IMG/VR virus record: IMGVR_UViG_3300028073_000008
Location: 62,001 to 126,000 of that record
Length of the DNA stretch: 64,000 nt
Reading direction: 5' to 3' (one strand)
Source: a virus
Positions 20,285 through 54,201 of this stretch are shown in pieces (position 1 is the first letter of the stretch; every line of letters begins with the position of its first letter). The translations under genes and the position numbers were made by a program. The notes beneath the pieces are model-generated. The model did not search any database. It saw only the letters and a program-made list of their open reading frames with translations, and was not told the origin of the DNA.

Positions 20285-21772
20285 ATGAAAGGTCTTATTT
20301 TTAATATTTTGGGTTCACCGACCCGAACGCTAGGCGCATATCGTATAGCTCATTGTCTCAGAGAAGAAGGTTGGGACATCGAAGTTATCGACTTCTGCGA
20401 AGTTTGGGAGTTAGATGAATTACAAGAGTTAGCAAAATCCCGGATCGACAAAGACACTGTCTTTCTAGGATTTAGTTTTCTTTTCAGCAACATGTCTGAA
20501 AGATTTGAAAACTATATCAAATGGTTGAAAGTTACTTTCCCAGATGTATTGTTGATTTCAGGAGGACAAGTAGCTGCTCAGTTTGATACTAGTTCTTTTG
20601 ATTTACATATAAAAGGTTTCGGTGAACTAGCACTGTTAGAATTCCTTAGATGGTACAAAGGCAACGGACCTAGACCGAGATTTGATTTGTTATCAAAAGG
20701 GTGTAAGCTCATAGATGCTAACAAACAGTATCCGGCATATCCAATGAAGAGTCTCATGGTCAAGTATGAAGATAGAGATTTCATAGACTCAAACGAATGG
20801 TTGACTATAGAGTTTGCTCGAGGTTGTAAATTTAAATGTGACTTCTGTAACTTTCCAATCTTAGGAGTCAAGGGCGACTATAGCAGAGATGCCGAAGACG
20901 CTAGGATACAATTACAAGACAGCTATGATAGATTCGGAGTATCCAACTATCTCGTATCAGATGAAACATTTAATGACCGAACTGAAAAGATCAGCAAGTT
21001 CGCTGATGTTGTAGAACAGCTTTCATTCCGACCTTGGTTCTCAGGATTCGTCAGGGCAGATTTATTGATATCTCGTCCTAGAGATAGAGAAGAACTGCTT
21101 AGGATGAATTTCCTAGGACAGTATTATGGTATAGAAAGTTTCAACAGAGATGCTGCCAGGATAGTTGGCAAAGGAATGGATCCTGAAAAGATCAAACAAG
21201 GGTTGATAGATATAAAAAATTATTATCATTCAAATGGTACAAAATTGTATCGAGGATCTATTAGTTTGATCATAGGGTTAGCAAAAGAAAATAGAGAAAG
21301 CCTAGACAATACTATTAGATGGTTGACAGAGAATTGGAGTGGCGAATCATTCAGTCCGTTTGTATTAGAAGTGCCTATAGGTTCGTTCGATACAAAATCT
21401 TCGATAAGTTCAAACTATCAATCATATGGTTATAGATTGATGAAAGATTCTGATGTAAAACGCAGCGCAAACTTGAATGTCGGGTATGTTAGGAGAGAAA
21501 CAGCTCTTAGTGAAGACTGTCTAAAATGGGAGCATGACGATCTTAACATAGTAGAAGCTACCCAGATACAGGATGAATGGTTAGAAGTTAGAGATAATCC
21601 TAACAATAAATTCACTGTAAACTGTTTTAGTTTAAGCGATGTCGGTAGACACTTACCTATATCTGAAAAATTAAAACTGCCTCAAAAGGCAATCGACATG
21701 AGTACAGATTGGAATCATCCAGATTTCAAAGAACTGATGGCGAATTATAAGTTCAAAAAATTATCTTTGTGA
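20285..21772 (+). CDS. B12-binding-type radical SAM protein
   Basis: 495 aa. The N-terminal 130 residues look like a cobalamin-binding Rossmann domain (MKGLIFNILGSP, then FLGFSFLFSN and LLISGGQVA), followed by the radical SAM core with CKFKCDFC at residues 181-188. The C-terminal third has no match that I recognise. Such enzymes often methylate unactivated carbon or work on hopanoids, antibiotics or chlorophyll-like molecules; no substrate is implied here. It stands alone among tRNAs with its own late promoter box and no Shine-Dalgarno, and a sigma70 promoter for the next tRNAs begins right at its stop. Seventh radical SAM protein of the window. Confidence 0.87.
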   Translation: MKGLIFNILGSPTRTLGAYRIAHCLREEGWDIEVIDFCEVWELDELQELAKSRIDKDTVFLGFSFLFSNMSERFENYIKWLKVTFPDVLLISGGQVAAQFDTSSFDLHIKGFGELALLEFLRWYKGNGPRPRFDLLSKGCKLIDANKQYPAYPMKSLMVKYEDRDFIDSNEWLTIEFARGCKFKCDFCNFPILGVKGDYSRDAEDARIQLQDSYDRFGVSNYLVSDETFNDRTEKISKFADVVEQLSFRPWFSGFVRADLLISRPRDREELLRMNFLGQYYGIESFNRDAARIVGKGMDPEKIKQGLIDIKNYYHSNGTKLYRGSISLIIGLAKENRESLDNTIRWLTENWSGESFSPFVLEVPIGSFDTKSSISSNYQSYGYRLMKDSDVKRSANLNVGYVRRETALSEDCLKWEHDDLNIVEATQIQDEWLEVRDNPNNKFTVNCFSLSDVGRHLPISEKLKLPQKAIDMSTDWNHPDFKELMANYKFKKLSL

Positions 21773-21801
21773 TTGACAGCAGTCAGTTAATGTAGTACAA
21801 T
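21773..21801 (+). promoter_or_regulatory. Consensus sigma70 promoter for downstream tRNAs
   Basis: TTGACA (21773-21778), exact 17-base spacer, TACAAT (21796-21801), 12 bases upstream of tRNA-Cys. Begins immediately after the stop of the radical SAM gene. Confidence 0.82.
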
Positions 21802-21813
21802 AATCAAACTTAG

Positions 21814-21891
21814 GGACAGGTGCCAGAGAGGTCCAATGGAACAGTCTGCAAAACTGTAAAGCCGTGGGTTCAAATCCCACCCTGTCCTCCA
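21814..21891 (+). tRNA. tRNA-Cys(GCA)
   Basis: Acceptor GGACAGG/CCTGTCC, loop CTGCAAA with anticodon GCA, U73 (the Cys identity base), encoded CCA. Confidence 0.92.
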
Positions 21892-21918
21892 CGTTGTTTG
21901 ACAATCAAATCAGTTAAT

Positions 21919-21993
21919 GCTCCGGTCGTCTATCGGTCAGGACGCTGCCCTTTCAAGGCGGAAAGAGGGGTTCGACTCCCCTTCGGAGTACCA
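21919..21993 (+). tRNA. tRNA-Glu(TTC)
   Basis: Acceptor GCTCCGG/TCGGAGT with wobbles, D arm starting TCGTCTA as in bacterial Glu, loop CTTTCAA, anticodon TTC, A73, encoded CCA. Confidence 0.88.
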
Positions 21994-21999
21994 TTTAAT

Positions 22000-22075
22000 G
22001 CGGGCGTAGCTCAGTTGGTAGAGCATTACCTTGCCAAGGTAAATGTCGTCGGTTCGAACCCGATCGCCCGCTCCA
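22000..22075 (+). tRNA. tRNA-Gly(GCC)
   Basis: Acceptor GCGGGCG/CGCCCGC, loop TTGCCAA, anticodon GCC, U73 (Gly type), encoded CCA. Confidence 0.92.
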
Positions 22076-22098
22076 ATTTTTTAAAGGAGGAAACTATC

Positions 22099-22140
22099 AT
22101 GGGAGATGATGGTAAATCTGGTAAACGTTTGGGCCCTTAG
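22099..22140 (+). CDS. 13-residue microprotein MGDDGKSGKRLGP
   Basis: ATG 22099 with AAAGGAGG ending 9 bases before the ATG, the strongest ribosome site in the tRNA array. The 13-codon frame ends in TAG whose bases are part of the acceptor stem of tRNA-Lys(TTT). A consensus site in front of so short a frame between two tRNAs suggests real translation, perhaps a ribosome-occupancy device that guards or times processing of the transcript, or a small binding peptide. Function unknown; it could also be the remnant of a lost gene. Confidence 0.4.
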   Translation: MGDDGKSGKRLGP

Positions 22141-22206
22141 CTCAGTAGGTAGAGCAGCGGACTTTTAATCCGTTGGTCGTGAGTTCGAATCTCACAGGGC
22201 CCACCA
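22131..22206 (+). tRNA. tRNA-Lys(TTT)
   Basis: Acceptor GGGCCCT/AGGGCCC, loop CTTTTAA, anticodon TTT, A73, encoded CCA. 5' end overlaps the stop of the 13-codon frame. Confidence 0.92.
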
Positions 22207-22208
22207 TT

Positions 22209-22299
22209 ACCATATTGAAATATACTGTAGCGGGTTCGCAAGTATGAGTCGCATTCTAAAGAGTGTCCTTGAACTGAATATAGTGTATTTCAATATGTT
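22209..22299 (+). ncRNA. Structured RNA closed by a 16-bp helix
   Basis: Bases 22211-22226 pair with 22282-22297 (12 perfect pairs CATATTGAAATA/TATTTCAATATG, then four more with one G-U). The 55-base interior has CATTC/GAGTG and GCGGGTTCGC-type hairpins. No frame, no anticodon. It sits exactly between tRNA-Lys and a CAT tRNA, so it should be released when the tRNAs are processed. Confidence 0.6.
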
Positions 22300-22302
22300 A
22301 AT

Positions 22303-22378
22303 GGCAGTATAGCATAGCGGCTAATGCGGCACCTTCATACGGTGTATATCGTAGGTTCGAGTCCTACTACTGCTACCA
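22303..22378 (+). tRNA. tRNA with CAT anticodon (elongator Met or Ile2)
   Basis: Acceptor GGCAGTA/TACTGCT (G1-U72), loop TTCATAC, anticodon CAT, A73, encoded CCA. One of the two internal CAT tRNAs probably reads AUG and the other AUA after lysidine modification. Confidence 0.83.
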
Positions 22379-22387
22379 TAAAAATTC

Positions 22388-22463
22388 GGGCCAGTAGCTC
22401 ATCTGGGAGAGCGCCTCGTTTGCACCGAGGAGGTAGCGGGTTCAAGTCCTGTCTGGTCCACCA
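22388..22463 (+). tRNA. tRNA-Ala(TGC)
   Basis: Acceptor GGGCCAG/CTGGTCC with G3-U70, the Ala identity pair; loop TTTGCAC, anticodon TGC, A73, CCA encoded. Confidence 0.93.
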
Positions 22464-22469
22464 TGTTAT

Positions 22470-22544
22470 GGCTCGTTCATATAGTGGCTATTATGCCTGC
22501 CTGTCTAGCAGGACATAGGGGTTCGATTCCCCTACGAGTCGCCA
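22470..22544 (+). tRNA. tRNA-Asp(GTC)
   Basis: Acceptor GGCTCGT/ACGAGTC, loop CTGTCTA, anticodon GTC, G73 (Asp identity), CCA encoded. Confidence 0.92.
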
Positions 22545-22551
22545 ACTCTAT

Positions 22552-22627
22552 TCCGGAGTAGCACAGAGGTAGTTGCAGCGGACTGTTAATCCGCGTGTCG
22601 TTGGTTCGATCCCAACCTCCGGAGCCA
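22552..22627 (+). tRNA. tRNA-Asn(GTT)
   Basis: Acceptor TCCGGAG/CTCCGGA, loop CTGTTAA, anticodon GTT, G73, CCA encoded. Confidence 0.92.
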
Positions 22628-22850
22628 AGTTTTGAGAGTGTCAGCAAGAGAAAGACACGCTGGTTAGGTTTCTTCGAAGGACCGACCCAGTAGAAGGTGG
22701 CGGGTTCGATGCCCGGCGGATCGGAAGATCCGTGTACAAGGTGGCGTACTATCTGGTCCGGTATCCCGAGTGACGTACCGAGTCCCGCTAGCTAATCCGG
22801 AGAAGGGTGAATGGTAGCAATAACGATGGTGCTACAACTCTCAAATTCAT
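22628..22850 (+). ncRNA. Structured RNA of about 215 bases
   Basis: TTTGAGAGT (22631-22639) pairs with ACTCTCAAA (22837-22845), closing the whole spacer. Inside are GTGTC/GACAC, GGATC-GGAA-GATCC and GTAGCA/TGCTAC hairpins and a T-arm-like CGGG-TTCGATG-CCCG. No believable reading frame. The largest of the inter-tRNA elements; no known class recognised. Confidence 0.6.
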
Positions 22851-22853
22851 TAT

Positions 22854-22928
22854 TGGGGAATCGTCTAATCGGTAGGACACCTGACTTTGACTCAGGCAGT
22901 ATTGGTTCGAGTCCAGTTTCCCCAGCCA
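22854..22928 (+). tRNA. tRNA-Gln(TTG)
   Basis: Acceptor TGGGGAA/TTCCCCA (U1-A72 as in bacterial Gln), loop CTTTGAC, anticodon TTG, G73, CCA encoded. Confidence 0.92.
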
Positions 22929-22929
22929 C

Positions 22930-23004
22930 ACCGGAGTAGCTCAGAGGTAGAGCAGCGGCCCGATAAGCCGTTGGTCGTTGGTTCAATTCCAACCTTCGGT
23001 ACCA
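22930..23004 (+). tRNA. tRNA-Ile(GAT)
   Basis: Acceptor ACCGGAG/CTTCGGT, stem GCGGC/GCCGT, loop CCGATAA, anticodon GAT, A73, CCA encoded. Confidence 0.9.
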
Positions 23005-23012
23005 GAATACGG

Positions 23013-23041
23013 TTGACACAGTCAACAAAAGACTACATAAT
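23013..23041 (+). promoter_or_regulatory. Sigma70 promoter before tRNA-Leu(TAG)
   Basis: TTGACA (23013-23018), 17-base spacer, CATAAT (23036-23041), 9 bases before tRNA-Leu. Confidence 0.75.
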
Positions 23042-23050
23042 ATAAACAAT

Positions 23051-23133
23051 GCCCCGATGGTGGAATTGGTAGACACGCTGGTCTTAGAAGCCAGTACTTC
23101 GGTGTGCGAGTTCGAGTCTCGCTTGGGGCACCA
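23051..23133 (+). tRNA. tRNA-Leu(TAG)
   Basis: Acceptor GCCCCGA/TTGGGGC, loop CTTAGAA, anticodon TAG, normal long variable arm, A73, CCA encoded. Its last bases take part in the 21-bp helix of the RNA that follows. Confidence 0.93.
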
Positions 23134-23276
23134 TTAGTTAGTAGCATAGCTCGTCGGCCTACGATCAAGGCTAACCTTGTCCGAAGCGGGAAGCCTATGA
23201 TACTAGTAACTGGTCTGTGTAACAGATCAACAATAGGTAGCAAGAGGATAGTAAACTATGCTACTAACTAATGGTG
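23129..23276 (+). ncRNA. Structured RNA closed by a perfect 21-bp helix
   Basis: Bases 23129-23149 pair without mismatch with 23256-23276 (core CCATTAGTTAGTAGCATAG and its complement). The helix includes the CCA end of tRNA-Leu, so tRNA maturation and this RNA compete for the same bases. Interior hairpins: CAAGG-CTAA-CCTTG and TCTGT/ACAGA. No frame. A long perfect helix of this kind is a natural RNase III substrate. Confidence 0.65.
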
Positions 23277-23284
23277 AAAGTTTA

Positions 23285-23359
23285 GGGTGATTAGCTCAGT
23301 GGTAGAGCGCCTCGTTTACACCGAGGATGTCGGGAGTTCGACCCTCTCATCACCCACCA
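23285..23359 (+). tRNA. tRNA-Val(TAC)
   Basis: Acceptor GGGTGAT/ATCACCC, loop TTTACAC, anticodon TAC, A73, CCA encoded. Confidence 0.93.
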
Positions 23360-23364
23360 ATTAT

Positions 23365-23454
23365 GGAAGTGTGGTCGAGTCTGGTTTATGGCAACGGTCT
23401 TGAAAACCGTCGAACCGAAAGGTTCCGTGAGTTCGAATCTCACCGCTTCCGCCA
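23365..23454 (+). tRNA. tRNA-Ser(TGA)
   Basis: Acceptor GGAAGTG/CGCTTCC, loop CTTGAAA, anticodon TGA, long variable arm, G73, CCA encoded. Confidence 0.93.
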
Positions 23455-23456
23455 TA

Positions 23457-23463
23457 TTAAATA
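23457..23463 (+). promoter_or_regulatory. T4-type late promoter box
   Basis: TTAAATA, 5 bases before the ATG at 23469; same spacing as at 4795, 14149, 20285 and 54213. Confidence 0.5.
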
Positions 23464-23468
23464 GTATC

Positions 23469-24257
23469 ATGAAAGCTATAAAGATACTGATCTGCGGACT
23501 GCCAGGAGCAGGTAAAACAACACTGGCTAAAGCATTACAATCTAGATTAGGTGATACCGAACACCTAGAAGCAGATGCTGTTAGAAAACGGTTTGATGAT
23601 TGGGACTTCAGTGAAGAAGGACGAATCAGGCAAAGCTTCAGGATGAAACTGCTGTCAGATGAAAGCGAAGCACGTTACGTGATCGCCGACTTCATAGCAC
23701 CTCTAGAAGCTACTAGAAAAAACTATTCAGCAGATTGGACCATTTGGGTTGACACTATCCGCGAAGGCAGATATGAAGATACCAACAAGATGTTCCAAGA
23801 ACCAGACATATATGATTTCCGTATCACTGAACAAGATGCTGAAAAATGGGCAGCGTTTATCTCTGATCATATATTGGCCGATCGCAGACGTCCTGTATGG
23901 AATAATCGCAAAGAAACTGTACAGATGTTAGGTCGTTGGCAACCATGGCATGATGGGCATCGTGCTCTATTCGAAAGAGCGTTGGCCAAGACTGGTCAAG
24001 TCTGTATCATGGTGCGTGATTGCCAAGGTTGGAATGATAGTAATCCGTTCAACTTCTACGATGTGGCTAGATTTATCAAGAGAGATCTAGATCCTTTGTA
24101 TCAAGGTCAATTCCAAATCGTGCTTGTGCCTAATATCGTGAACATCACGTATGGTAGGGATGTAGGTTACAAGATCGAACAAGAACATTTTGATCAATCT
24201 ATCACTGATATCTCTGCTACAAAGATAAGAGAATCGTTGAATATCAAGAAGGATTGA
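23469..24257 (+). CDS. Adenylylsulfate-kinase-like / nucleotidyltransferase fusion
   Basis: 262 aa from ATG 23469 (upstream frame runs through tRNA-Ser and is not real). N-terminal half: Walker A GLPGAGKTT at 10-18, LEADAVRK and ADFIAPLEATRKNY resemble APS kinase (CysC), which makes PAPS from APS and ATP. C-terminal half: GRWQPWHDGH (H161, H164) and ISATKIRESL at 248-257 are the HxGH-type and ISxTxxR motifs of nucleotidyltransferases of the NMN/cytidylyl class. The next gene is a sulfotransferase, which would use PAPS. The nucleotidyltransferase partner could adenylate sulfate or another small substrate. The pathway is inference; the domains are fairly clear. Confidence 0.78.
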   Translation: MKAIKILICGLPGAGKTTLAKALQSRLGDTEHLEADAVRKRFDDWDFSEEGRIRQSFRMKLLSDESEARYVIADFIAPLEATRKNYSADWTIWVDTIREGRYEDTNKMFQEPDIYDFRITEQDAEKWAAFISDHILADRRRPVWNNRKETVQMLGRWQPWHDGHRALFERALAKTGQVCIMVRDCQGWNDSNPFNFYDVARFIKRDLDPLYQGQFQIVLVPNIVNITYGRDVGYKIEQEHFDQSITDISATKIRESLNIKKD

Positions 24258-24258
24258 T

Positions 24259-24900
24259 ATGAGTAGCGTTGTTGTTACAGGTGAAAAGAACATAGCGTTC
24301 GTACACAATCCCAAAGTGGCTGGTATGAGTATCAAGAGTTGGTTGATATCTAACAGAAAGAACAGCACGTATCAAGAATTTGATCTCAAAGTAACGTTCA
24401 ATGATCTAAAAAACACAGTAGACAATTTGCCATTTAGCTTTAGCATAGTTAGAAACCCTTGGGACCGCATGGTCAGTGGTTACTATGAACTGCGTAGATG
24501 GTATGATAATCCAGGAAAAGCCAGCCAAGACAATTTAAATTTTGTCCGAGACTATTTTAATAGATCTCCGTTTCCATCTTTCGATCAGTTTATGAACGAA
24601 TTTCCACAAGACGAAATGTGGTCTGTGTTATATCCTATGCTGTCTCCATATCCTCCTACATGGCCTAAAGGTGCCGTGACACAGAAGCAGTATGTTGACG
24701 GTGTAAATTTGATATTGCGATATGAAAATATCGAAGAAGATTTCAAACAGATACAAAAGATCTATGATTGTGATGTGCCATTGCCCATGATCAATACTTC
24801 CGAAAATAATGACTATAGATCATACTACAACGATAGGACTAAAGCCATAGTAGCTGCGTTCTTCCAAGAAGACATAGACACATTCAGATACAGTTTCTAA
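24259..24900 (+). CDS. Sulfotransferase family protein
   Basis: 213 aa. VHNPKVAGMSIKSWL near the N terminus is the 5'-phosphosulfate-binding loop (PKxAGxS), and SIVRNPWDRMVSGYYELR is the 3'-phosphate motif (RNPxDRxxSxY) of PAPS-dependent sulfotransferases. ATG one base after the stop of the APS-kinase-like gene, with AAGGA upstream, so the two are an operon that could make and use PAPS. Possible targets are host surface sugars, a phage-made metabolite or tRNA; none is indicated by the sequence. Confidence 0.85.
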   Translation: MSSVVVTGEKNIAFVHNPKVAGMSIKSWLISNRKNSTYQEFDLKVTFNDLKNTVDNLPFSFSIVRNPWDRMVSGYYELRRWYDNPGKASQDNLNFVRDYFNRSPFPSFDQFMNEFPQDEMWSVLYPMLSPYPPTWPKGAVTQKQYVDGVNLILRYENIEEDFKQIQKIYDCDVPLPMINTSENNDYRSYYNDRTKAIVAAFFQEDIDTFRYSF

Positions 24901-24961
24901 AATCTTATACCACGATAAGTATCATTGTTCCGCAGTGCGGTAAAAAACAAGGAGGACTATC

Positions 24962-25381
24962 ATGAGTATCATGGACTTTATCCATAAGATAGAACAAGTC
25001 AGTGAAACTGCTGCTAGAAGACTGTCTCATCGTGCTTTACACGCGGCCGCAACTGTCTATAGTGATGCTAAAGAATTAGCCGACAAGTCGGCCAAGGACG
25101 TAGACAAAGCCAAGGCCAAACTAGAAGATGCCATGAAGAAGGCATATCAACACGCCGATGCTGCCCATTCAGCCGCAGTCGACGCATATGAAAAAGCCAA
25201 TGCTGAAGCACAAAGATTGGCACAAGAAGTCGAAGACGCTGCTTTCGAAGCAGCAAATAAACTGAATGCTCTTATCAATGCTGGGTTACAACCTATTCCC
25301 GGCAAAGAAGAGAAAAAAGAAGAACCAGAACCTTATTCTAGAGCAAATGCTGTAGACAAAGATTCTGTTTCAGTGTTATAA
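24962..25381 (+). CDS. Alanine-rich coiled-coil protein
   Basis: 139 aa, with consensus AAGGAGG 7 bases upstream, so likely highly expressed. Residues 10-105 are almost all helix, rich in Ala, Lys, Asp and Glu with heptad-like spacing (KAKAKLEDAMKKAYQHAD), then a Gly-Pro-Glu tail ending DKDSVSVL. No Cys, no signal peptide. Resembles LEA- or apolipoprotein-like phage proteins in composition only. It lies between the sulfotransferase and tRNA-Ser(GCT). Function unknown. Confidence 0.75.
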   Translation: MSIMDFIHKIEQVSETAARRLSHRALHAAATVYSDAKELADKSAKDVDKAKAKLEDAMKKAYQHADAAHSAAVDAYEKANAEAQRLAQEVEDAAFEAANKLNALINAGLQPIPGKEEKKEEPEPYSRANAVDKDSVSVL

Positions 25382-25390
25382 TAGAACATT

Positions 25391-25482
25391 GGTGAGGTGG
25401 ATGAGAGGCTTAAATCAGCAGTTTGCTAAACTGTCGTAGGCAGAAATGTCTACCGCGGGTTCGAATCCCGCCCTCACCGCCA
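25391..25482 (+). tRNA. tRNA-Ser(GCT)
   Basis: Acceptor GGTGAGG/CCTCACC, stem GCAGT/ACTGT, loop TTGCTAA, anticodon GCT, long variable arm, G73, CCA encoded. Confidence 0.92.
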
Positions 25483-25505
25483 AGTTCAAATATAAGTAAG
25501 AATAC

Positions 25506-25581
25506 GCTGCTTTAGCTCAGCCGGTAGAGCAACTGCCTTGTAAGCAGTAGGTCGTCAGTTCGAATCCGACAAGCAGCACCA
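25506..25581 (+). tRNA. tRNA-Thr(TGT)
   Basis: Acceptor GCTGCTT/AAGCAGC, loop CTTGTAA, anticodon TGT, A73, CCA encoded; one mismatch in the T stem. Confidence 0.9.
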
Positions 25582-25595
25582 TAATAAGGCAATAG

Positions 25596-26213
25596 ATGAA
25601 ATACGCTTATATCAATCCAACTGTGATAGCTGTAGACGACCTGCCAGCAGATGTCTTTGCCTATCTCAAGAACATGGTAGATACAGCGCATCAAATGACT
25701 CAGTTCAACGATGCTGGAGATCAATCCATTAGCATTAGAGGCGGTCAACAGATACAGCTATTGCCTAACGACTTTGGTCAGGATGTCACTGTATTGAAAA
25801 GTTTCGTGGAACAACGATGCTATGATTACATGGATACACTGACTAGACAATCGGGTAAACCTGATCTAGTCAATCTTGAACCAGAACTTGTGAGTGCCTG
25901 GACTATCAGACAAACAGCTGGTAACTATCAGGCCTTACATACACATAACGCACATATCAGCGGCAACATCTACATAGATGTTCCAGACCTAGATCCAGGA
26001 AGTCAATCTTCAGATGCCAATCTAGAATTTAGATTTCCTGTGGTCAAGGATCCCAGCAAGTTTACTTTTATAGATCAATTGAGATTTTCTCCGCGACCCA
26101 TGATGATGGTCATGTTTCCTAGCTATCTTCCACATACAGTATACCCGTGGAATGGACAAGGACACAGAACTATTTTGGCATGGGACGTGAAATTAAAGCC
26201 AAAAATGGCTTGA
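25596..26213 (+). CDS. Putative 2OG-Fe(II) oxygenase (TIGR02466-like)
   Basis: 205 aa. LHTHNAHISGNIYIDVPDL and, 70 residues later, FPSYLPHTVYPWNGQGHRTILAWDV form the His...His...Arg core of the small phage 2OG oxygenase family typified by the TIGR02466 model; the product of 39212-39787 has the same design. Such enzymes are frequent in T4-like marine phages with unknown targets. ATG with AAGG upstream. The -35 of the next promoter overlaps its stop codon. Confidence 0.75.
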   Translation: MKYAYINPTVIAVDDLPADVFAYLKNMVDTAHQMTQFNDAGDQSISIRGGQQIQLLPNDFGQDVTVLKSFVEQRCYDYMDTLTRQSGKPDLVNLEPELVSAWTIRQTAGNYQALHTHNAHISGNIYIDVPDLDPGSQSSDANLEFRFPVVKDPSKFTFIDQLRFSPRPMMMVMFPSYLPHTVYPWNGQGHRTILAWDVKLKPKMA

Positions 26214-26238
26214 CAGCATACACAAAATATCGTATTAT
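26210..26238 (+). promoter_or_regulatory. Consensus sigma70 promoter
   Basis: TTGACA (26210-26215), 17-base spacer, TATTAT (26233-26238). It overlaps the stop codon of the oxygenase gene and drives a leader of about 280 bases before the next ATG. Confidence 0.82.
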
Positions 26239-26244
26239 AGAGTT

Positions 26245-26520
26245 GTTGCGTAGGAAACTGCGCAGCCGGCGAGGTAAAGGGTAGATGAGGATAGACAATC
26301 GTTCGGCTTCATGCCGAGCTCCAATACTGGCAAACAGTCTTGAAAACTGTCCGTGCTTGTGTGTTCCGATACCAAAATAGAATGTCTGTTGATAGTCGGA
26401 AATAAGCAGGCCTCTGTGCTATGTACATTGAGGTTTGTCAAAGGCGTTATCGTTGATCCGCCCCTGTCAGTTGTCCGGTCTATTACTTGACCTTTTACCA
26501 ACCCGTTATTAATCAAAGGA
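26245..26520 (+). ncRNA. Long structured 5' leader or stable RNA
   Basis: 313 bases separate the oxygenase gene from 26528. Downstream of the promoter I see TCGGC-TTCAT-GCCGA, an anticodon-arm-like ACAGT-CTTGAAA-ACTGT (identical loop to tRNA-Ser(TGA)), and GGTAAAGG near the 5' end that can pair with CCTTTTACC near the 3' end with one bulge. No frame of note. Either a cis-acting leader of the coiled-coil gene or another stable RNA of the array. Confidence 0.5.
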
Positions 26521-26527
26521 AAAAGAA

Positions 26528-27100
26528 ATGAACATCACTCTACGCAAGGCAAACGCACTACAAACAGCAATCAATGATGCTATCCGTAGCATCAAGGTCG
26601 AAACTTCGATCGAACTGAACGAATTCCAAGATGTAGCAGCAGAATTGAAAGCTGCCAATGACCAACTGTTTGCCAGCGATGCTCGTAGACAGAAGTTGCT
26701 GTTGGCTCTTTACAACATCCGCGGTCTAGTAGCCGCAGCCAACGCTACTAATGACATCGATCTCAACCTAACCAAGGCTGCGTTCATCGACAAGCGCATC
26801 GGCCAGTTGGAAGAAATGGCTAACCAAAAGCCAGTGACTGATGTCGCTGTGCTCACAGGCAAGCTGGAAAAGATCAAGAATGACAAGGGCGAACATCGTA
26901 GCCGCATTTACGGCTACAGCGATACTGTCGCTACTTCTGTGCTCAGCCAGGAACAGATCGACAAGGTCAAGGCTGAGATCTTGAATCTCAAGAAGCAGAA
27001 GCAAAAGATCAACGATTCTATCTTGGAAGCTAACATCAAGACAGAAATTCCGTTGAGCGACGATGTCGCAGAAACATTGAAAGTAGAAAATCTACTGTAA
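26528..27100 (+). CDS. Coiled-coil phage protein
   Basis: 190 aa, AAAGGAAAAAG before the ATG. Predicted helical throughout with long heptad regions (residues 1-60 and 140-175, e.g. KAEILNLKKQKQKINDSI) and a central loop HRSRIYGYSDTV. No membrane segment, no catalytic motif. GC content and codon use are slightly higher than in the island genes, hinting at strong expression. It ends just 6 bases before the initiator tRNA. Unknown; perhaps a structural or scaffold-like protein. Confidence 0.75.
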   Translation: MNITLRKANALQTAINDAIRSIKVETSIELNEFQDVAAELKAANDQLFASDARRQKLLLALYNIRGLVAAANATNDIDLNLTKAAFIDKRIGQLEEMANQKPVTDVAVLTGKLEKIKNDKGEHRSRIYGYSDTVATSVLSQEQIDKVKAEILNLKKQKQKINDSILEANIKTEIPLSDDVAETLKVENLL

Positions 27101-27106
27101 GTTTAT

Positions 27107-27181
27107 AGCAGGGTAGAGAAGCAGTAACTCACCAGGTTCATACCCTGGAGATCGGTGGTGCGATTCCACCCCCTGCAACCA
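27107..27181 (+). tRNA. Initiator tRNA-fMet(CAT)
   Basis: A1-A72 mismatch at the top of the acceptor (AGCAGGG/CCCTGCA), anticodon CAT in loop TTCATAC, and a 3' end CAACCA as in E. coli initiator tRNA. The unpaired 1-72 position is the key signal for formylation and initiation. The anticodon stem ends in G-G/C-C with only two of the three usual G-C pairs. The other two CAT tRNAs are paired at 1-72. Confidence 0.88.
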
Positions 27182-27185
27182 GTTT

Positions 27186-27262
27186 CGGAGTGTAGCGCAG
27201 CCTGGTAGCGCAACTGGTTTGGGACCAGTGGGTCGGGAGTTCGAATCTCTCCACTCCGACCA
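27186..27262 (+). tRNA. tRNA-Pro(TGG), second copy
   Basis: Acceptor CGGAGTG/CACTCCG (C1-G72), loop TTTGGGA, anticodon TGG, A73, CCA encoded. Different in sequence from the copy at 19522. Confidence 0.92.
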
Positions 27263-27277
27263 TTTATTGAGGTATAT

Positions 27278-27625
27278 ATGAGTGACGGCGGCAAAGGTAG
27301 TAAACCAAGACCATTTAGTGTTGATCAAAAGACATTCGATAATAACTGGGATAATATCTTTAACAGAAAAAAGAAAACAGACGCAGAACTGTTTGATGAA
27401 GCTGTCATGAAAGATGAATACTACGATTTGGAGAATGAAATGCAGATGCCTGTAGAAGAAAACGCAGATGAAATTGGTAAATGTGGTTGTGGTCGCAGCC
27501 CCACTGGTAAGTGTATCGGTTGGCATGGACTGACCGAAGAAGACTATCGAGTCAAGCTAGCAGAATGGGAAGAAAAGAAACTAAGCGATCGCAAAGTCGC
27601 AGCCAGCTATATCAAAGAAGATTAA
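27278..27625 (+). CDS. Small protein with CDGSH-like iron-sulfur motif
   Basis: 115 aa. The segment CGCGRSPTGKCIGWHGL near residues 69-85 follows the C-x-C-x2-S-x4-C-x-G-x-H spacing close to the CDGSH 2Fe-2S motif (three Cys and one His), with I-G-W-H in place of D-G-S-H and one residue fewer. The remainder is highly charged. If it binds a 2Fe-2S cluster it would fit the Fe-S theme of this phage; it could also bind zinc. ATG has AGG upstream; flanked by tRNAs. Confidence 0.65.
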   Translation: MSDGGKGSKPRPFSVDQKTFDNNWDNIFNRKKKTDAELFDEAVMKDEYYDLENEMQMPVEENADEIGKCGCGRSPTGKCIGWHGLTEEDYRVKLAEWEEKKLSDRKVAASYIKED

Positions 27626-27632
27626 TAAAAAT

Positions 27633-27708
27633 GCGGGTGTAACTCAGTTGGTAGAGTGATAGCCTTCCAAGCTATATGTCGCGAGTTCGAACCTCGTCGC
27701 CCGCTCCA
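27633..27708 (+). tRNA. tRNA-Gly(TCC)
   Basis: Acceptor GCGGGTG/CGCCCGC, loop CTT CCAA with anticodon TCC, U73, CCA encoded. Confidence 0.92.
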
Positions 27709-27719
27709 GGATTTTTTCT

Positions 27720-28289
27720 ATGATACCGGTCATCGATAGTAACGACATCTTTAAGACATATGATTTCAGTTCTGTCATAACACAACAGGATGTCGATCAG
27801 GCTATTTCTAGTATCGAGCGTGTCATAGCAGATGGTAACTATTTTGAAAATAGTCCCAAGTTCCAAACCAAAGAAAACATATTCCAAAGACCAGAATCCT
27901 GTTGGTTGAAGTTTCGTATGAGCTTTATATTCAGTGTGTTCATGTATCTAGGACGTGAAGCAAAGATATCAAATATGATGGCTTGGTCATTTATGACCAA
28001 TCTACACGGTGCCGAGGATCGAGATAAACTTTGGCATCATCATCACCATAAAACAAATACTAACATGCTCAGTGGCATAATGTATCTTCATATACCCGAC
28101 GATGTTACCAATCGGGATACCTGCGGAACAGAAATGGCTCCAAACGGTCTAGAATCAGATGACAGACTGTTTATTAGACCATATAATTATACTTGGTTGA
28201 TATATCCAAGCAGGATATGGCACCGCCCGGGAATAGTACAGAGTAACAACTATAGATTCGTATTAGCAGGAGATATCGAATACAGTTAA
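27720..28289 (+). CDS. Putative 2OG-Fe(II) oxygenase-like protein
   Basis: 189 aa. A His-rich stretch (LWHHHHHKTNTNMLSGIMYLHIP) precedes a beta-rich part, and IWHRPGIVQSNNYRFVLAGD at the C terminus gives the distal His and Arg expected of this oxygenase group. The HxD spacing is not certain because of the run of histidines, which could also bind another metal. AGGA precedes the ATG. Substrate unknown. Confidence 0.6.
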   Translation: MIPVIDSNDIFKTYDFSSVITQQDVDQAISSIERVIADGNYFENSPKFQTKENIFQRPESCWLKFRMSFIFSVFMYLGREAKISNMMAWSFMTNLHGAEDRDKLWHHHHHKTNTNMLSGIMYLHIPDDVTNRDTCGTEMAPNGLESDDRLFIRPYNYTWLIYPSRIWHRPGIVQSNNYRFVLAGDIEYS

Positions 28290-28296
28290 AAACATC

Positions 28297-28373
28297 TGCC
28301 CGTAGCTCAGCCGGATTAGAGCAACAGCCTTCTAAGCTGTGGGTCGGGGGTTCGAATCCCTCCGGGCAGGCCA
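28297..28373 (+). tRNA. tRNA-Arg(TCT)
   Basis: Acceptor CTGCCCG/CGGGCAG, loop CTTCTAA, anticodon TCT, G73, CCA encoded. Confidence 0.92.
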
Positions 28374-28376
28374 CTA

Positions 28377-28452
28377 CTCTCCGTAGTTCAACAGGATAGA
28401 ACAAGACACTCCTAAGGTTTAGATGGCTGTTCGAGTCAGCCCGGGGAGGCCA
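28377..28452 (+). tRNA. tRNA-Arg(CCT)
   Basis: Acceptor CTCTCCG/CGGGGAG, loop CTCCTAA as in E. coli Arg(CCT), G73, CCA encoded. The anticodon stem AGACA/GGTTT is weak, with an A-G mismatch next to the loop. Confidence 0.78.
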
Positions 28453-28455
28453 AAT

Positions 28456-28538
28456 GCGAGCGTGGAGAAATCGGTAAACTCAGGAGACTTAAAATCTCCC
28501 GCTTCGGCTTGTGGGTTCGAGTCCCACCGCTCGCACCA
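28456..28538 (+). tRNA. tRNA-Leu(TAA)
   Basis: Acceptor GCGAGCG/CGCTCGC, loop CTTAAAA, anticodon TAA, long variable arm, A73, CCA encoded. Confidence 0.93.
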
Positions 28539-28541
28539 AAG

Positions 28542-28615
28542 GCTCCTATAGTTAAGTGGTATAACACATCCTTGGTAAGGATGAATTACAAGTTCAATTC
28601 TTGTTGGGAGCACCA
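28542..28615 (+). tRNA. tRNA-Thr(GGT)
   Basis: Acceptor GCTCCTA/TGGGAGC, stem CATCC/GGATG, loop TTGGTAA, anticodon GGT, A73, CCA encoded. Confidence 0.91.
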
Positions 28616-28626
28616 TCTTTATCTGT

Positions 28627-28680
28627 ATGTTTTTAAAGGTATTTGTCCAAAATAAGTAATAAGTTGGCCTTTAAAAACAT
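28627..28680 (+). promoter_or_regulatory. 13-bp hairpin touching the ribosome site of the lysis-type gene
   Basis: ATGTTTTTAAAGG (28627-28639) pairs perfectly with CCTTTAAAAACAT (28668-28680). The GGAGG of the next gene begins at the very next base. It may act as a processing site or control access of ribosomes, comparable in idea to the hairpin that controls T4 lysozyme translation. Confidence 0.6.
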
Positions 28681-28690
28681 GGAGGTTATT

Positions 28691-29194
28691 ATGAGAAACA
28701 TAGCAATAGTCTGTGTTGCCCTGTTATTAGGTGGCTGTCAGACTACAACACAAGCAGCTAGACCCTACATGGAAGAAGCACATCGTATGGAGGGCATGGA
28801 TGCTAAAACTAATCGTAAAGAACTCAAGCATTATATGAATTCGGCCAGAACAGGCACCGTAGATCCTTTACATATTCCTTGGTGTGCTGGTTGGGCAAAT
28901 GCCGTATTACAGAATAATGGAGTACAAGGAACTCATAGTCTAATGGCTCGCAGTTTCTTGAAATGGGGTCATCCTACACATAATCCACAAGAAGGCGACA
29001 TCGTGGTTCTGCGTAGAGGTCGAGCCGAATGGAGTGGTCATGTGGGATTCTTCAAAGGATATGAAGTAGTCGATGGCGTCACTTATGTCAAGGTATTGGG
29101 AGGCAATACTGACAAGAGTGTCGCGATCGGATACTTTCCGACTAATTATGTCCTAGCATTTAGAGCACCAAATTATTCTCCCAAAATGAATTAG
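28691..29194 (+). CDS. Lipoprotein with CHAP/NlpC-like peptidoglycan hydrolase domain
   Basis: 167 aa from ATG 28691 (GGAGG upstream; a longer TTG frame from 28643 has no signal peptide). Residues 1-16 are a lipoprotein signal ending LLLGGC. The mature part has WCAGWANAVL (nucleophile Cys), GHVGFFKGYE (His) and VLGGNTDKS (Asn/Gly), the Cys-His order of CHAP and TIGR02594-type amidases or peptidases. It would be anchored in a membrane and cut peptidoglycan, so a lysis or entry role is likely. A hairpin abuts its ribosome site. Its TAG stop shares one base with tRNA-Leu(GAG). Confidence 0.75.
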   Translation: MRNIAIVCVALLLGGCQTTTQAARPYMEEAHRMEGMDAKTNRKELKHYMNSARTGTVDPLHIPWCAGWANAVLQNNGVQGTHSLMARSFLKWGHPTHNPQEGDIVVLRRGRAEWSGHVGFFKGYEVVDGVTYVKVLGGNTDKSVAIGYFPTNYVLAFRAPNYSPKMN

Positions 29195-29270
29195 CCCTGG
29201 TGGCGGAATCGGTATACGCACTACGTTGAGGTCGTAGGTTTTGCGGGTTCGAATCCCGCCTAGGGCACCA
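29194..29270 (+). tRNA. tRNA-Leu(GAG) with a short variable loop
   Basis: Acceptor GCCCTGG/CTAGGGC, Leu-like D arm (GGCGGAATCGGT), loop TTGAGGT, anticodon GAG, A73, CCA encoded. Variable region 5 bases instead of the long arm typical of Leu. Confidence 0.85.
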
Positions 29271-34775: not shown

Positions 34776-35315
34776 ATGAAAACCGTTGGTAATAAACTAG
34801 ACCCATTTGTGATCACTGGCGTCAAGCCTGGTCAACCCGAAGATGCTTTCTTCGATATCACACACGAATCATTTCCAGGCAAGTGGAAAGTAATCGTGTA
34901 TTACCCAAAGGACTTTACATTCGTATGTCCTACTGAAATCGTAGCCTACGACAAATTGTCTAAAGATTTCGAAGACCGTGATGCTGTATTGCTAACTGGT
35001 TCAACAGACAATGAGTTCTGTAAGGTAGCTTGGCAGAACGCACACGAAGATCTCAAGAAGATTACTCACACACAGTTTGCTGATACACAGCGTGGCGAAA
35101 ACAGTTTGATCGAACAGCTTGGTGTATTTTATGCTCCAGCAGGTGCCGCACTTCGTGCCACTTTCATTGTTGATCCAAACAATGAGATCCAACACGTTAC
35201 TGTTAACAACTTGAACGTTGGTCGTAGCCCAGAGGAAACTCTACGTATCCTCGACGCTCTCCAAACTGGCGAGTTGTGCGCATGTAATCGTAAGGTTGGT
35301 GGCGAAACTCTTTAA
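34776..35315 (+). CDS. ahpC: AhpC-type 2-Cys peroxiredoxin
   Basis: 179 aa. FTFVCPTE at 48-54 holds the peroxidatic Cys (C51); the C terminus GELCACNRK gives C168 and C170, the double Cys of actinobacterial-type AhpC that is reduced by AhpD. Detoxifies hydrogen peroxide and organic peroxides in the cytoplasm. Strong AAGGAG and its own promoter suggest high expression. The gene two places downstream is AhpD-like, so a complete AhpC/AhpD couple is present, separated by an SGNH gene. Confidence 0.93.
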   Translation: MKTVGNKLDPFVITGVKPGQPEDAFFDITHESFPGKWKVIVYYPKDFTFVCPTEIVAYDKLSKDFEDRDAVLLTGSTDNEFCKVAWQNAHEDLKKITHTQFADTQRGENSLIEQLGVFYAPAGAALRATFIVDPNNEIQHVTVNNLNVGRSPEETLRILDALQTGELCACNRKVGGETL

Positions 35316-35325: not shown

Positions 35326-35733
35326 ATGCTTGAGTGTTTGATATTAGGTGACAGCATAGCAGTAGGTACTATCCAGGCTAGACCTGGTTGTGTTGAAATG
35401 GCCAAAGGTGGCATCAACAGTTGGCAATGGAACAAACAATTCAGCGATCGTCCGGCACTGGACGGAATGGAATATAAGTTTGTTGTGATCAGTCTAGGTT
35501 CGAACGATCACAAAGGTGTCAACACAGAAAAGGAAATACTTGCTATCAGAGAAAAGGTAATCGCTAAACACGTTTACTGGATCCTTCCTGCTATCAAACC
35601 AGATGTACAAGCGATCGTACAAAAGGTTGCGGGTAGGTATGGCGATACTGTCCTACCGATCCGCACTCTTTCTAAAGACGGCGTACATCCTACAGGCAAA
35701 GGTTACAAAGAAATAGCAGAGACACTAAAATGA
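35326..35733 (+). CDS. SGNH hydrolase-like protein
   Basis: 135 aa. LILGDSIAVG holds the catalytic Ser in the GDS block, ISLGSNDHKG the block III Asn (GxND), and KDGVHPTGKGY the Asp/His block V, so all key SGNH residues are present in a minimal-length protein. Overlaps the AhpD-like gene by an ATGA. A similar small SGNH protein class is common in T4-like marine phages. Substrate unknown. Confidence 0.82.
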   Translation: MLECLILGDSIAVGTIQARPGCVEMAKGGINSWQWNKQFSDRPALDGMEYKFVVISLGSNDHKGVNTEKEILAIREKVIAKHVYWILPAIKPDVQAIVQKVAGRYGDTVLPIRTLSKDGVHPTGKGYKEIAETLK

Positions 35734-36245
35734 CAACATGGGTAGATCAAATCAAAGAGGCATTGCCAGATTATGCCAAAGACACTAGACTTAATCTGGA
35801 CGCGGTTATTAATCGCAGCACATTGGATCCAATCGAGGCAAACGGTTGCGCACTCGCCGCAGCCATGGCTACCGGCAATGGAAAGCTGGTTACATTCATT
35901 CAGTCTGGGATTGAAGACACTGTTGAGCGCGATGCTGCGTTGACTGCTGCCGCTATCATGGCACAGAATAACGTATGGTATCCATATGTTGAAATGGCTG
36001 ATGATGCAAACCTCAAAGGTTTGCCAGCACAGCTACGCATGAATGCTATTGCCAGCCACGGCGGTACTACCAAGGCTCGTTTTGAATCATATAGCCTTGC
36101 TGCCAGTATCGTAGGCAAATGTCATTTCTGCGTCAAGGCGCACTATGAAACACTCAAGAAGGAAGGCTACACAGTAGAACAACTTCGAGACATAGGACGC
36201 ATTGCCGCAGTAATTACATCAGTGGCAAGAGTATTAAATTCATGA
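35730..36245 (+). CDS. ahpD: AhpD-like alkylhydroperoxidase
   Basis: 171 aa. CHFCVKAH (C131, H132, C134, H138) with E119 upstream reproduces the CxxC...H proton-relay site of AhpD (C130, H132, C133, H137 and E118 in the mycobacterial enzyme). AhpD reduces AhpC through a lipoamide-linked dithiol. Its place in the same operon as AhpC with CxC ending makes the pairing convincing. Without lipoylated partner genes in the window, electrons would come from the host. Confidence 0.88.
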   Translation: MTTWVDQIKEALPDYAKDTRLNLDAVINRSTLDPIEANGCALAAAMATGNGKLVTFIQSGIEDTVERDAALTAAAIMAQNNVWYPYVEMADDANLKGLPAQLRMNAIASHGGTTKARFESYSLAASIVGKCHFCVKAHYETLKKEGYTVEQLRDIGRIAAVITSVARVLNS

Positions 36246-36544: not shown

Positions 36545-37222
36545 ATGAAGAAAACTTTACTACTGTCTGCGGTAGCAGTTATCGCACTGGCGTCTGCCGG
36601 TATCGCTGCTGATCTACCAAAGAAGAAGAAGACTGAGCCTGCTGCGGCTGCTCCAGTCGTATCAGCAGTGCCTACTGAAAAACCAGTACAAGTAGCCAGT
36701 GCTGATACCACTATCGCTCTTGGATTCGGAATGGAATCTAATGACGGTGTTTACGACACCGCTAACAAGTATGCCTATAAGGTAGCTGTTGAGCGTAACA
36801 TCGGCGGTGGTGCGTTTGTTGGTGGTAATTTCCAAACCAGCCAAACACAACCAAACAATGGTGCTATCAAGCAGAACATCGAAGTCATCGGCGGCTACAA
36901 GCTGCCAATGGGTCCTGTATCTGTCAAGGGAAGTTTAGGTGTCGGTGAACGTTATACCGATGGCAATAACTTTTCTTACTATGTTGCTCGTGCTGGCGCA
37001 GACTATAAGCTGACCGACTCGATCACATTGAACGCTGCTCAATATCGTTATCGTAATGCGTTCGACACTACCAACAACTATCAGAGCCACCAAATCGGCA
37101 CTGGTATGACTTTCAACTACACGCAGAATCAGGCCATCTATGCCAATGTCTACCGTAACCTAGACAGCGGTTTCAATGTCACTGACAATGGTGTAGAAAT
37201 GGGACTTAAGGTTTCTTTCTAA
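36545..37222 (+). CDS. Outer-membrane beta-barrel protein
   Basis: 225 aa. Signal peptide MKKTLLLSAVAVIALASAGIAA with cleavage near residue 22, then a Lys/Pro/Ala-rich linker, then about 150 residues of alternating strands (GLGFGMESNDG, AGADYKLTDSITLNAAQYRYRN) ending in a terminal Phe (GLKVSF), the C-terminal signature for barrel insertion. Looks like an 8-stranded OmpA- or Omp31-like barrel of proteobacterial type. In a phage it may change the host surface, e.g. to block other phages or alter uptake. Own promoter, structured leader and terminator. Confidence 0.85.
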   Translation: MKKTLLLSAVAVIALASAGIAADLPKKKKTEPAAAAPVVSAVPTEKPVQVASADTTIALGFGMESNDGVYDTANKYAYKVAVERNIGGGAFVGGNFQTSQTQPNNGAIKQNIEVIGGYKLPMGPVSVKGSLGVGERYTDGNNFSYYVARAGADYKLTDSITLNAAQYRYRNAFDTTNNYQSHQIGTGMTFNYTQNQAIYANVYRNLDSGFNVTDNGVEMGLKVSF

Positions 37223-37228: not shown

Positions 37229-37258
37229 GAAATAGCGGCGAGAGTCGCTATTTCCTTT
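37229..37258 (+). terminator. Terminator-like hairpin
   Basis: GAAATAGCG (37229-37237) pairs with CGCTATTTC (37246-37254), then CTTTAT. T-run is poor, so termination may be partial. Confidence 0.55.
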
Positions 37259-37287
37259 ATATCATTTTCATGATTTTCACTATGTTT

Positions 37288-37338
37288 TTGAAGTTGGTTT
37301 TCCTGTAATATTACGATACATACTGTACACAAGTATGT
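37288..37338 (+). promoter_or_regulatory. Probable promoter and leader hairpin of the pqqA-like gene
   Basis: TTGAAG (37288-37293) with TACGAT (37312-37317) at 18 bases, or TTGGTT (37294-37299) with TACATA (37317-37322) at 17 bases. A small inverted repeat ACATAC/GTATGT lies at 37318-37323 and 37333-37338 before the ribosome site. Weaker than other promoters here. Confidence 0.4.
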
Positions 37339-37356
37339 TTCATAAAGGAGAATATT

Positions 37357-37428
37357 ATGTGGACCAAACCAGAAGCAGTTGAAATGCGATATGGTTTCGA
37401 AATCACTATGTACGTGATGAATCGATAA
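37357..37428 (+). CDS. pqqA: PqqA-like PQQ precursor peptide
   Basis: 23 codons (ATG 37357, TAA 37426-37428) with AAAGGAG 8 bases upstream. The peptide MWTKPEAVEMRYGFEITMYV, ending MNR, follows the PqqA family closely: W2-x-K-P start, R11-x-G-F-E15-x-T-x-Y19 core and N-R end. In PqqA a Glu and a Tyr three residues apart (E15 and Y19 in the 23-residue Klebsiella form) are cross-linked by the radical SAM enzyme PqqE to form the cofactor pyrroloquinoline quinone. Here both residues are at the same positions. It stands alone between its own promoter and a strong terminator. PqqB-E are not in the window, so host enzymes would be needed, or distant phage genes. Confidence 0.85.
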   Translation: MWTKPEAVEMRYGFEITMYVMNR

Positions 37429-37429
37429 C

Positions 37430-37463
37430 CAAAAAAGGCCCTAAGCGATTAGGGCTTTTTTTT
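37430..37463 (+). terminator. Rho-independent terminator after pqqA
   Basis: GCCCTAA (37438-37444), GCGA loop, TTAGGGC (37449-37455), then eight T. The flanking A-run extends the stem, so it is bidirectional in form. Confidence 0.88.
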
Positions 37464-37511: not shown

Positions 37512-37622
37512 GTGGCCGTGAGTGGAATATGGCAGACCTCCAATCCGTTGTGAAACGCATTCGGGAAAGGGACACAGGCATAGCCGCCGTCTTTGTAGGT
37601 TCGAATCCTACCGGCCACACCA
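37512..37622 (+). ncRNA. tRNA-like RNA without a recognisable anticodon loop
   Basis: 111 bases. Acceptor GTGGCCG/CGGCCAC, T arm GTAGG-TTCGAAT-CCTAC, A73 and CCA are textbook tRNA. The middle is not: where the anticodon arm should be there is AATCCGTT-GTGA-AACGCATT, a hairpin with a GNRA-type tetraloop and one C-C mismatch, plus a GGC-ATA-GCC hairpin in an enlarged variable region. It has its own promoter starting at base 1. Could be an aminoacylatable decoy, a tRNA with an insertion, or an RNA that uses the tRNA end for stability. Confidence 0.6.
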
Positions 37623-52486: not shown

Positions 52487-52889
52487 GATTGGTTTTACTT
52501 GCTCTACGTTTGATCTGTTCCACGCAGGTCATGTGATGATGCTAGAAGAAGCTAAAACAAAATGCGATTATCTAATTGTGGGATTACAGACCGATCCCAC
52601 ACTAGATCGGCCACACAAGAATAAACCTGTACAAGGTGTATTTGAAAGGTGGGTACAGCTTAATGGCTGTAAGCATGTGGATCAGATCGTTCCATATGCT
52701 ACAGAACAAGAGCTCTACGATATCTTGAATTCTTTTCCTATTGATGTTAGAATATTAGGAGAAGAATACATAGACAAAGATTTTACTGGCAGCGGTCTAC
52801 CGATGGAATATCATTTCAATAGACGCAGGCACAGTTTTTCCACAACCGAATTAAGACAGCGTGTAGTTGACGCAGAAAGCAACAAATGA
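52479..52889 (+). CDS. Cytidylyltransferase-like protein (TagD/RfaE type)
   Basis: 136 aa. FTCSTFDLFHAGHVMML is the HxGH motif region, and RHSFSTTELRQR the (I/F)-S-T-T-x-x-R motif near the end; length equals glycerol-3-phosphate cytidylyltransferase. It activates a phosphate-bearing small molecule with CTP or ATP. Neighbouring glycosyltransferases suggest use in glycan synthesis; inference. ATGA overlap with the UV endonuclease gene. Confidence 0.85.
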   Translation: MTKIGFTCSTFDLFHAGHVMMLEEAKTKCDYLIVGLQTDPTLDRPHKNKPVQGVFERWVQLNGCKHVDQIVPYATEQELYDILNSFPIDVRILGEEYIDKDFTGSGLPMEYHFNRRRHSFSTTELRQRVVDAESNK

Positions 52890-53914
52890 CTAAACGTATA
52901 GGGTTTGCCTGTAAATGGATCGACGGTCCTAGCCAAATCGACGGCATCAAACAGAAGGACGACTGTAAGCAGTACAATACAGGTAGCACCACTGTGGCAT
53001 GGTTAAATAGACAGACGAGAGAAGTAGCAGAACAAAAGCTATGGGATCTAGCTAATGCTAATATCGAAGCTACTCGTAAACTTGTCGAACGTGTAGGAGA
53101 ATTACCCGATGAACTCCGTATGGTCCGCCTTAGCAGTGATATTCTTCCTGTCTACACTGAGCCTAGCTGGTCTTACTATTATCGTCAGCCTGATGTCCGC
53201 TTACATCTTGAAAGAGCCTTTTCGAGTGTGGGCGATCTGGGACGCAGTCGGGGGGTACGCCTTAGCTTTCACCCTGGTCAATTTTGTGTGTTGGCTAGTG
53301 ATAATGATGACGTTGTTAGTCGCTCTATAGAGGAGTTCGAATATCATGTGGACATGGCTCGCTGGATGGGATATGGCAAAACGTTTCAAGACTTTAAAAT
53401 CAATGTTCATATCGCAGGCCGACAAGGCCCAATGGGAATACGTGCTGCGTTGGCTAGGATGACTCCCGAGGCCCGTAACACGCTAACTATCGAAAATGAT
53501 GAAATGACTTGGGGCATAGAAGACAGCATCGAGCTAGTCAACGATTGTGCCCTTGTACTAGATATACATCATCATTGGGTAAACTCAGGAGAATATATCG
53601 ATGCTAATGACGACCGTGTTAAAAGGATTATTGATAGCTGGCGGGGTGCTAGCCGCCCTGTGCTTCATTACTCTGTCAGCCGTGAAGATATATTGGTTGG
53701 ACACGACATGTATACCCTTCCTGATATGGCCCAACTGCTGAGCCAAGGATACAAAAAACAAAAACTCAGAGCTCATTCTAACTTTTACTGGAATCAACCA
53801 GCAAACGAATGGGCTCTGAGTTTCCGAGACAACTTCGATATCATGTGCGAGAGCAAAGCTAAAAATCTAGCTAGTTTCGCACTATACGAAGAAGCGCAAC
53901 AGTTAGGCTGCTGA
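52886..53914 (+). CDS. uvsE: UV damage endonuclease UvdE/UvsE
   Basis: 342 aa. RIGFACKW start, RLSSDILPVYTEP, RLSFHPGQFCVLAS, HVDMARWMGY and LVLDIHHHWVNSGE follow the UVDE TIM-barrel with its His/Glu/Asp metal ligands and the ENDEMTWG segment. The enzyme nicks DNA 5' of cyclobutane dimers and 6-4 products, starting repair. Overlaps the cytidylyltransferase gene (ATGA) and the convergent AT-hook gene by 12 bases. Full length. Confidence 0.92.
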   Translation: MTKRIGFACKWIDGPSQIDGIKQKDDCKQYNTGSTTVAWLNRQTREVAEQKLWDLANANIEATRKLVERVGELPDELRMVRLSSDILPVYTEPSWSYYYRQPDVRLHLERAFSSVGDLGRSRGVRLSFHPGQFCVLASDNDDVVSRSIEEFEYHVDMARWMGYGKTFQDFKINVHIAGRQGPMGIRAALARMTPEARNTLTIENDEMTWGIEDSIELVNDCALVLDIHHHWVNSGEYIDANDDRVKRIIDSWRGASRPVLHYSVSREDILVGHDMYTLPDMAQLLSQGYKKQKLRAHSNFYWNQPANEWALSFRDNFDIMCESKAKNLASFALYEEAQQLGC

Positions 53915-54172: not shown

Positions 54173-54201
54173 GTTAATCTCCTTACAGCCTATTTAGCTG
54201 G

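Follow-up and report, generated by a model that had tools for sequence, protein, structure and literature searches.

A phage-encoded pqqA gene lies behind a dyad-type box shared with Methylophilaceae pqqA genes

The cofactor PQQ is derived from a peptide, PqqA: PqqE/PqqD crosslink its Glu15 and Tyr19, and PqqB/PqqC then process it. One PqqA peptide is consumed per PQQ molecule. In marine and fresh waters, Methylophilaceae form a link between algal methanol and CO2. Phage genes of the psbA, pmoC and amoC type are copies of host parts that are consumed or turned over, and they sustain host energy metabolism. The pqqA gene described here would resemble these genes in that respect, but it encodes a 23-residue cofactor precursor and comes with a host regulatory element, rather than encoding an enzyme subunit. 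With bacterial pqqABCDE operons, such as those of Acinetobacter, the phages have PqqA in common, but they lack pqqB, C, D and E in its vicinity. With the stand-alone pqqA genes of Methylophilaceae they share the peptide family, a conserved element that we call the PQQ box, the −10, a leader hairpin and the terminator layout. Among phages, the closest described case is the Lake Baikal methylophage VP_266, in which Coutinho et al. 2020 (PMC7678222) reported PqqA together with a methanol dehydrogenase (MDH) and proposed the same role that we propose below. The first-pass annotation of our sequence knew of no established report of a phage pqqA and was wrong on this point; pqqA is also listed among viral genes in a 2026 AEM paper. 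VP_266 and the phage studied here are alike in being T4-like phages with PqqA and a predicted Methylophilaceae host. In VP_266 a viral MDH stands alongside PqqA, whereas none was found in our record, and the study of Coutinho et al. described neither a promoter or box nor a survey of how widely isolates carry the gene.

We analysed a window of 64,000 nucleotides, bases 62001-126000 of the 169,155-base virus record IMGVR_UViG_3300028073_000008. In this window, a complete ORF of 23 codons (37357-37428, plus strand, as are all features given below with a strand) encodes the PQQ precursor peptide MWTKPEAVEMRYGFEITMYVMNR. Its initial description as a near-canonical PqqA was borne out exactly, with E15 and Y19 in place: the translation reads E15-I-T-M-Y19, so that the crosslink residues keep their ExxxY spacing. 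The strong ribosome binding site claimed for it is AAAGGAG (37344-37350, +). The profile TIGR02107, against which the first-pass annotation had proposed to search the peptide, scored it at 34.6 bits (cut-off 20), and PF08042 did so at 35.6 bits (E-value of 8.8 × 10−9, cut-off 21.1 bits). A generic PqqA DNA pattern matched the window once and none of 100 shuffles. A search of solved structures with the 23-mer gave no match. A hit of the Rfam family BTnc231 over pqqA, at 35 bits and so below the gathering score of 80, was taken to be a chance match driven by the terminator.

The record encodes a phage-type DNA polymerase, a ribonucleotide reductase and tail proteins. Two independent contigs (L413 and L404) are 100% identical to the window over 14,886 and 10,008 bp, respectively, in both cases including pqqA. 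This rules out a chimera, which had been named initially as one of the findings that would overturn the case; host contamination was rejected as well. Based on the phage genes in the record, the identical contigs and the occurrence of pqqA in cultured phages (see below), we conclude that pqqA sits in a true phage genome. Upstream of it is a conserved phage block (34776-36245) consisting of ahpC, a GDSL-like gene and an ahpD-like gene. The peroxiredoxin gene ahpC (34776-35315, +; PF00578, E-value of 1.5 × 10−20) and the ahpD-like gene of the CMD family (35730-36245, +; PF02627, E-value of 4 × 10−11) are conserved neighbours of pqqA, and the order ahpC-ahpD-pqqA is common to five relatives (L378, L418, L382, L373 and L365). 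Since PqqC chemistry releases hydrogen peroxide, a link between this block and peroxide removal is conceivable.

An intrinsic terminator with a 14 bp stem followed by a U-tract (37431-37462, +; fold z-score −4.34) lies 3' of pqqA, and a second terminator (37229-37254, +) ends the preceding gene (36545-37222), which places pqqA in a transcription unit of its own. The gene had been described as standing alone between a promoter and a perfect terminator. The terminator and the separate unit stand, but a plain sigma-70 promoter does not: no −35/−10 pair was found at the promoter position, and no −35 was seen in the window. The −10 hexamer TAATAT (37306-37311, +) begins 38 nt after the first base of the PQQ box, a dyad-type element at 37268-37283 (+). 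It is supported by the fixed spacing across phages and by an alignment with loci L378, L418 and L016. Because a conserved dyad and a −10 occur here with no −35, the pqqA promoter is probably of the activator type and of the kind found in the host PQQ regulon. Counted from the −10, the centre of the box falls near −42; class II activators bind near −42. We infer that the box activates pqqA rather than represses it.

Near the predicted transcript start is a leader hairpin (ACATACT-GTACACA-AGTATGT, 37318-37338, +). Judged against mononucleotide shuffles, a hairpin forms between the −10 and the ribosome binding site in most pqqA leaders (82% in phages, 74% in hosts), compared to 18% of random phage segments. 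Terminators follow 67 of 127 phage pqqA copies and 113 of 125 host copies, as opposed to 40 of 768 random segments. The phage and host promoters differ in geometry. The offset of the −10 from the box start peaks at 37-38 nt in phages and at 60 nt in hosts, so that the phage box mostly lies about 23 bp nearer the −10, although some phage loci have a host-like offset of 59-61. Host promoters often contain an additional half-site at +23, which is rare in phages. The DNA block that is conserved in divergent relatives starts at the box (approximately 37259-37270) and ends at the stop codon (37428), which argues that box and pqqA are inherited as one cassette. Judged from its sequence, the ensemble of box, −10, leader hairpin, terminator and pqqA is an autonomous cassette.

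The PQQ box of the window, TCATGATTTTCACTAT, is located 89 nt 5' of the pqqA ATG. It scored 14.4-15.3 bits with a position weight matrix (PWM) trained on host sequences, the top score in the whole 169-kb record. Unseeded motif searches of host and phage pqqA upstream regions, performed separately, converged on one element (hosts, TCATGAATTTCATTAG; phages, TAATGATTTTCCTTAT) with the dyad form TMATGA-N3-TCATKAG. With the host-trained matrix and a threshold of at least 6 bits, 76 (71%) of the 107 non-redundant upstreams of phage pqqA contained the box, compared to 2.4% of 1,225 upstreams of other ORFs on the same contigs. Among loci that were fetched later and held out of training, 27 of 33 window-type phage pqqA genes had a box, versus 0.9% of control segments. 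No box was present at any of 20 methanotroph-type phage pqqA genes. In Methylophilaceae, the box precedes 98 of 105 host pqqA copies, and it lies directly 5' of host pqqB in all ten loci that have no intervening pqqA and for which upstream sequence was present. Elsewhere in the class, 6 of 34 pqqA genes had one.

In host genomes, most perfect dyads either precede pqqA or pqqB or fall within ORFs. Of the 16 host box sites that we inspected with their flanks, seven precede pqqA or pqqB, one follows a methanol dehydrogenase gene at a distance of about 75 nt on its 3' side, and most others are inside ORFs. Among the partly annotated neighbours of these 16 sites, we recognised no iron gene. The element resembles a Fur box, but the site neighbours, as far as they are annotated, do not support this identification. 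At host MDH loci L305, L307, L308, L313 and L321, the box lies about 75-120 nt 3' of the MDH gene and before the next gene. The position of the box 3' of host MDH genes suggests that the regulon extends beyond the pqq genes. The papers searched for such a motif contained no description of it. The PQQ regulon behind the shared operator is apparently undescribed, and the sharing of this wiring between phages and hosts appears to be new.

Peptides of the window type were found in genomes of Methylophilaceae. Considering these peptide relatives and the Methylophilaceae-type box, we predict that the window phage infects Methylophilaceae. Twenty genomes of this family, picked for carrying pqqA, contained 82 pqqA genes, with 1-12 in each genome, whereas 18 of them contained pqqE, with 19 genes in total. 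Five pqqA copies have been described in a PQQ-producing methylotroph (PMC9851590). Multiplication of the substrate gene and not of the enzyme genes suits a peptide that is consumed. Glucose dehydrogenase, which the first-pass annotation had named beside methanol dehydrogenase as a possible target of the PQQ, is not favoured, as both the relatives and the regulatory element point to Methylophilaceae and thus to methanol.

We consider it likely that pqqA is a phage auxiliary metabolic gene that adds PqqA on the host PQQ signal and so sustains methanol dehydrogenase. The phage would make PqqA, while the host would supply PqqB-E and the regulator. Since one peptide is used per PQQ, PqqA is the pathway component that would gain from extra gene copies. 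Because the phage promoter carries the putative host PQQ-regulon operator, an activator through which the host turns on its own pqqA and pqqBCDE should turn on the phage copy simultaneously. The added PQQ would keep periplasmic methanol dehydrogenase (XoxF/MxaF) charged during infection, and the charged enzyme may in turn keep up the energy and C1 supply of the infected Methylophilaceae cell. Gene and host control element together suggest that these viruses keep methanol oxidation fuelled, and phage pqqA plausibly raises the PQQ supply for methanol dehydrogenase. From the DNA alone, we infer translation of the peptide, the regulator, the higher PQQ level and the benefit to the phage. An extra pqqA copy might not be limiting, because the PQQ output of a methylotroph with several copies can depend chiefly on a single one, as reported by Ge et al. 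2015 (cited in PMC9851590).

The phage record lacks a PqqE and an MDH of its own. No protein in the 169-kb record exceeded the PqqE cut-off (best 25 bits versus 381), and neither a PQQ-repeat dehydrogenase nor an MDH was found there. We therefore rejected a complete phage-encoded PQQ pathway as well as an MDH in the same record. In those IMG/VR pqqA loci that were fetched, no PqqB-E or XoxF was found within the stretch obtained. The window does encode at least six radical SAM proteins, one of which has a SPASM domain, and the peptide might be the substrate of such an enzyme of the phage's own, leading to a different product. Considering that none of these proteins is PqqE, that their genes lie 16-36 kb from pqqA and that a true PqqE query matched nothing in other phage loci, we regard this reading as most improbable. 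The radical SAM genes are located at 1025-11556 and 20285-21772, and one of them has a weak B12-binding match.

Conservation at residues fixed by the PqqA search pattern was excluded from the evidence. At the free codons outside the pattern, pooled dN/dS was 0.24 for phage pqqA and 0.07 for host pqqA, values for which synonymous sites are near saturation. By these values, phage pqqA, a homologue of host pqqA, is under purifying selection, with peptides that are more variable than those of the hosts. This variability, and the lack of a pathway enzyme in the phage, would also fit a decoy that ties up PqqD/PqqE with the phage peptide, or the host regulator with the phage box, so that host PQQ is lowered and metabolism diverted. 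We think this very unlikely, as the crosslink residues are retained and the commonest host peptide recurs unchanged at 18 phage loci, the second commonest at another 16. Moreover, a single operator beside an intact, terminated gene makes a poor titration device.

Using tblastn, we identified pqqA in nine Methylophilales phage isolate records: MEP301, MEP401, MEP402, Venkman, P19250A and four Melnitz records. This number represents matching records and is not a census, with MEP431-434 outside the count. P19250A was said to carry none of the genes reported for VP_266 (PMC7678222); contrary to this, it carries an unannotated pqqA. Five of the nine records have no feature annotated at pqqA, and in Melnitz-1 and an environmental podovirus an opposite-strand hypothetical ORF is annotated under the match. 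pqqA is absent from the main text of the Melnitz, MEP301 and MEP401/402 papers. The expectation that routine gene calling would miss the gene thus held in published genomes, where it was overlooked because it has only 23 codons. The only other matches among 50,697 phage records were the environmental podovirus and two records filed as Acinetobacter phage MD-2021a (CAKLQF020000010.1 and CAKLQH020000055.1). The first of these two, which has an entire pqqABCDE operon alongside ppk and fur, is probably of bacterial origin.

In IMG/VR, pqqA was present in at least about 245 distinct contigs of up to 372 kb (at least 120 by the generic pattern, 81 and 50 by two narrower patterns), of which some short ones could be host DNA. 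Together with the isolates, this breadth of phage pqqA appears to be new. Approximately 50 viral contigs of up to 372 kb (L036, L044, L106 and L440-L486) have a pqqA of the methanotroph type (MKWETP...) and lack the Methylophilaceae box; they probably belong to phages that infect methane oxidisers and have a pqqA of their own. The cassette occurs at varied positions and in varied phage types, and the hosts themselves hold many scattered pqqA copies, as might be expected of a selfish or neutral host-derived passenger with no benefit to infection. Such a passenger is unlikely, considering the retention of pqqA in phages as small as 35-44 kb and as large as 372 kb, the purifying selection on the gene and the conservation of box and spacing across divergent loci.

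As to the origin of the auxiliary gene, we judge the chances to be about even that methylotroph phages of several types and sizes have repeatedly acquired the complete host PQQ-regulon unit, consisting of operator, activator-type promoter, hairpin and pqqA. If true, this would be a cofactor-precursor phage gene timed by the host's own cofactor signal, and PqqA dose would be a general limiting currency of methylotroph infection. The occurrence of pqqA in nine methylophage isolate records, apparently the majority of the isolates sequenced so far for Methylophilaceae, points to PQQ supply as a possible control point of infection. The shared operator offers a testable handle on the PQQ regulon, and pqqA with its box may serve as a sequence marker linking orphan phages to methylotroph hosts.

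The window has several other features. A run of host-like genes (52886-55617) encodes a UvdE endonuclease, an Fe/Mn superoxide dismutase, an IscU-type NifU_N protein and an A-type Fe-S protein. Within 11 kb (18075-29270) there are 33 tRNA genes. Just 3' of pqqA lies a tRNA-like RNA (37512-37619) that was missed by ARAGORN and scored 29.7 bits with the Rfam tRNA model (gathering score 29), with a 43-nt insertion. It is kept in phage loci L408 and L032. In L032, the acceptor stem has paired changes (GTGGCCG/CGGCCAC to GTGACCG/CGGTCAC), and changes in the T stem are likewise paired.
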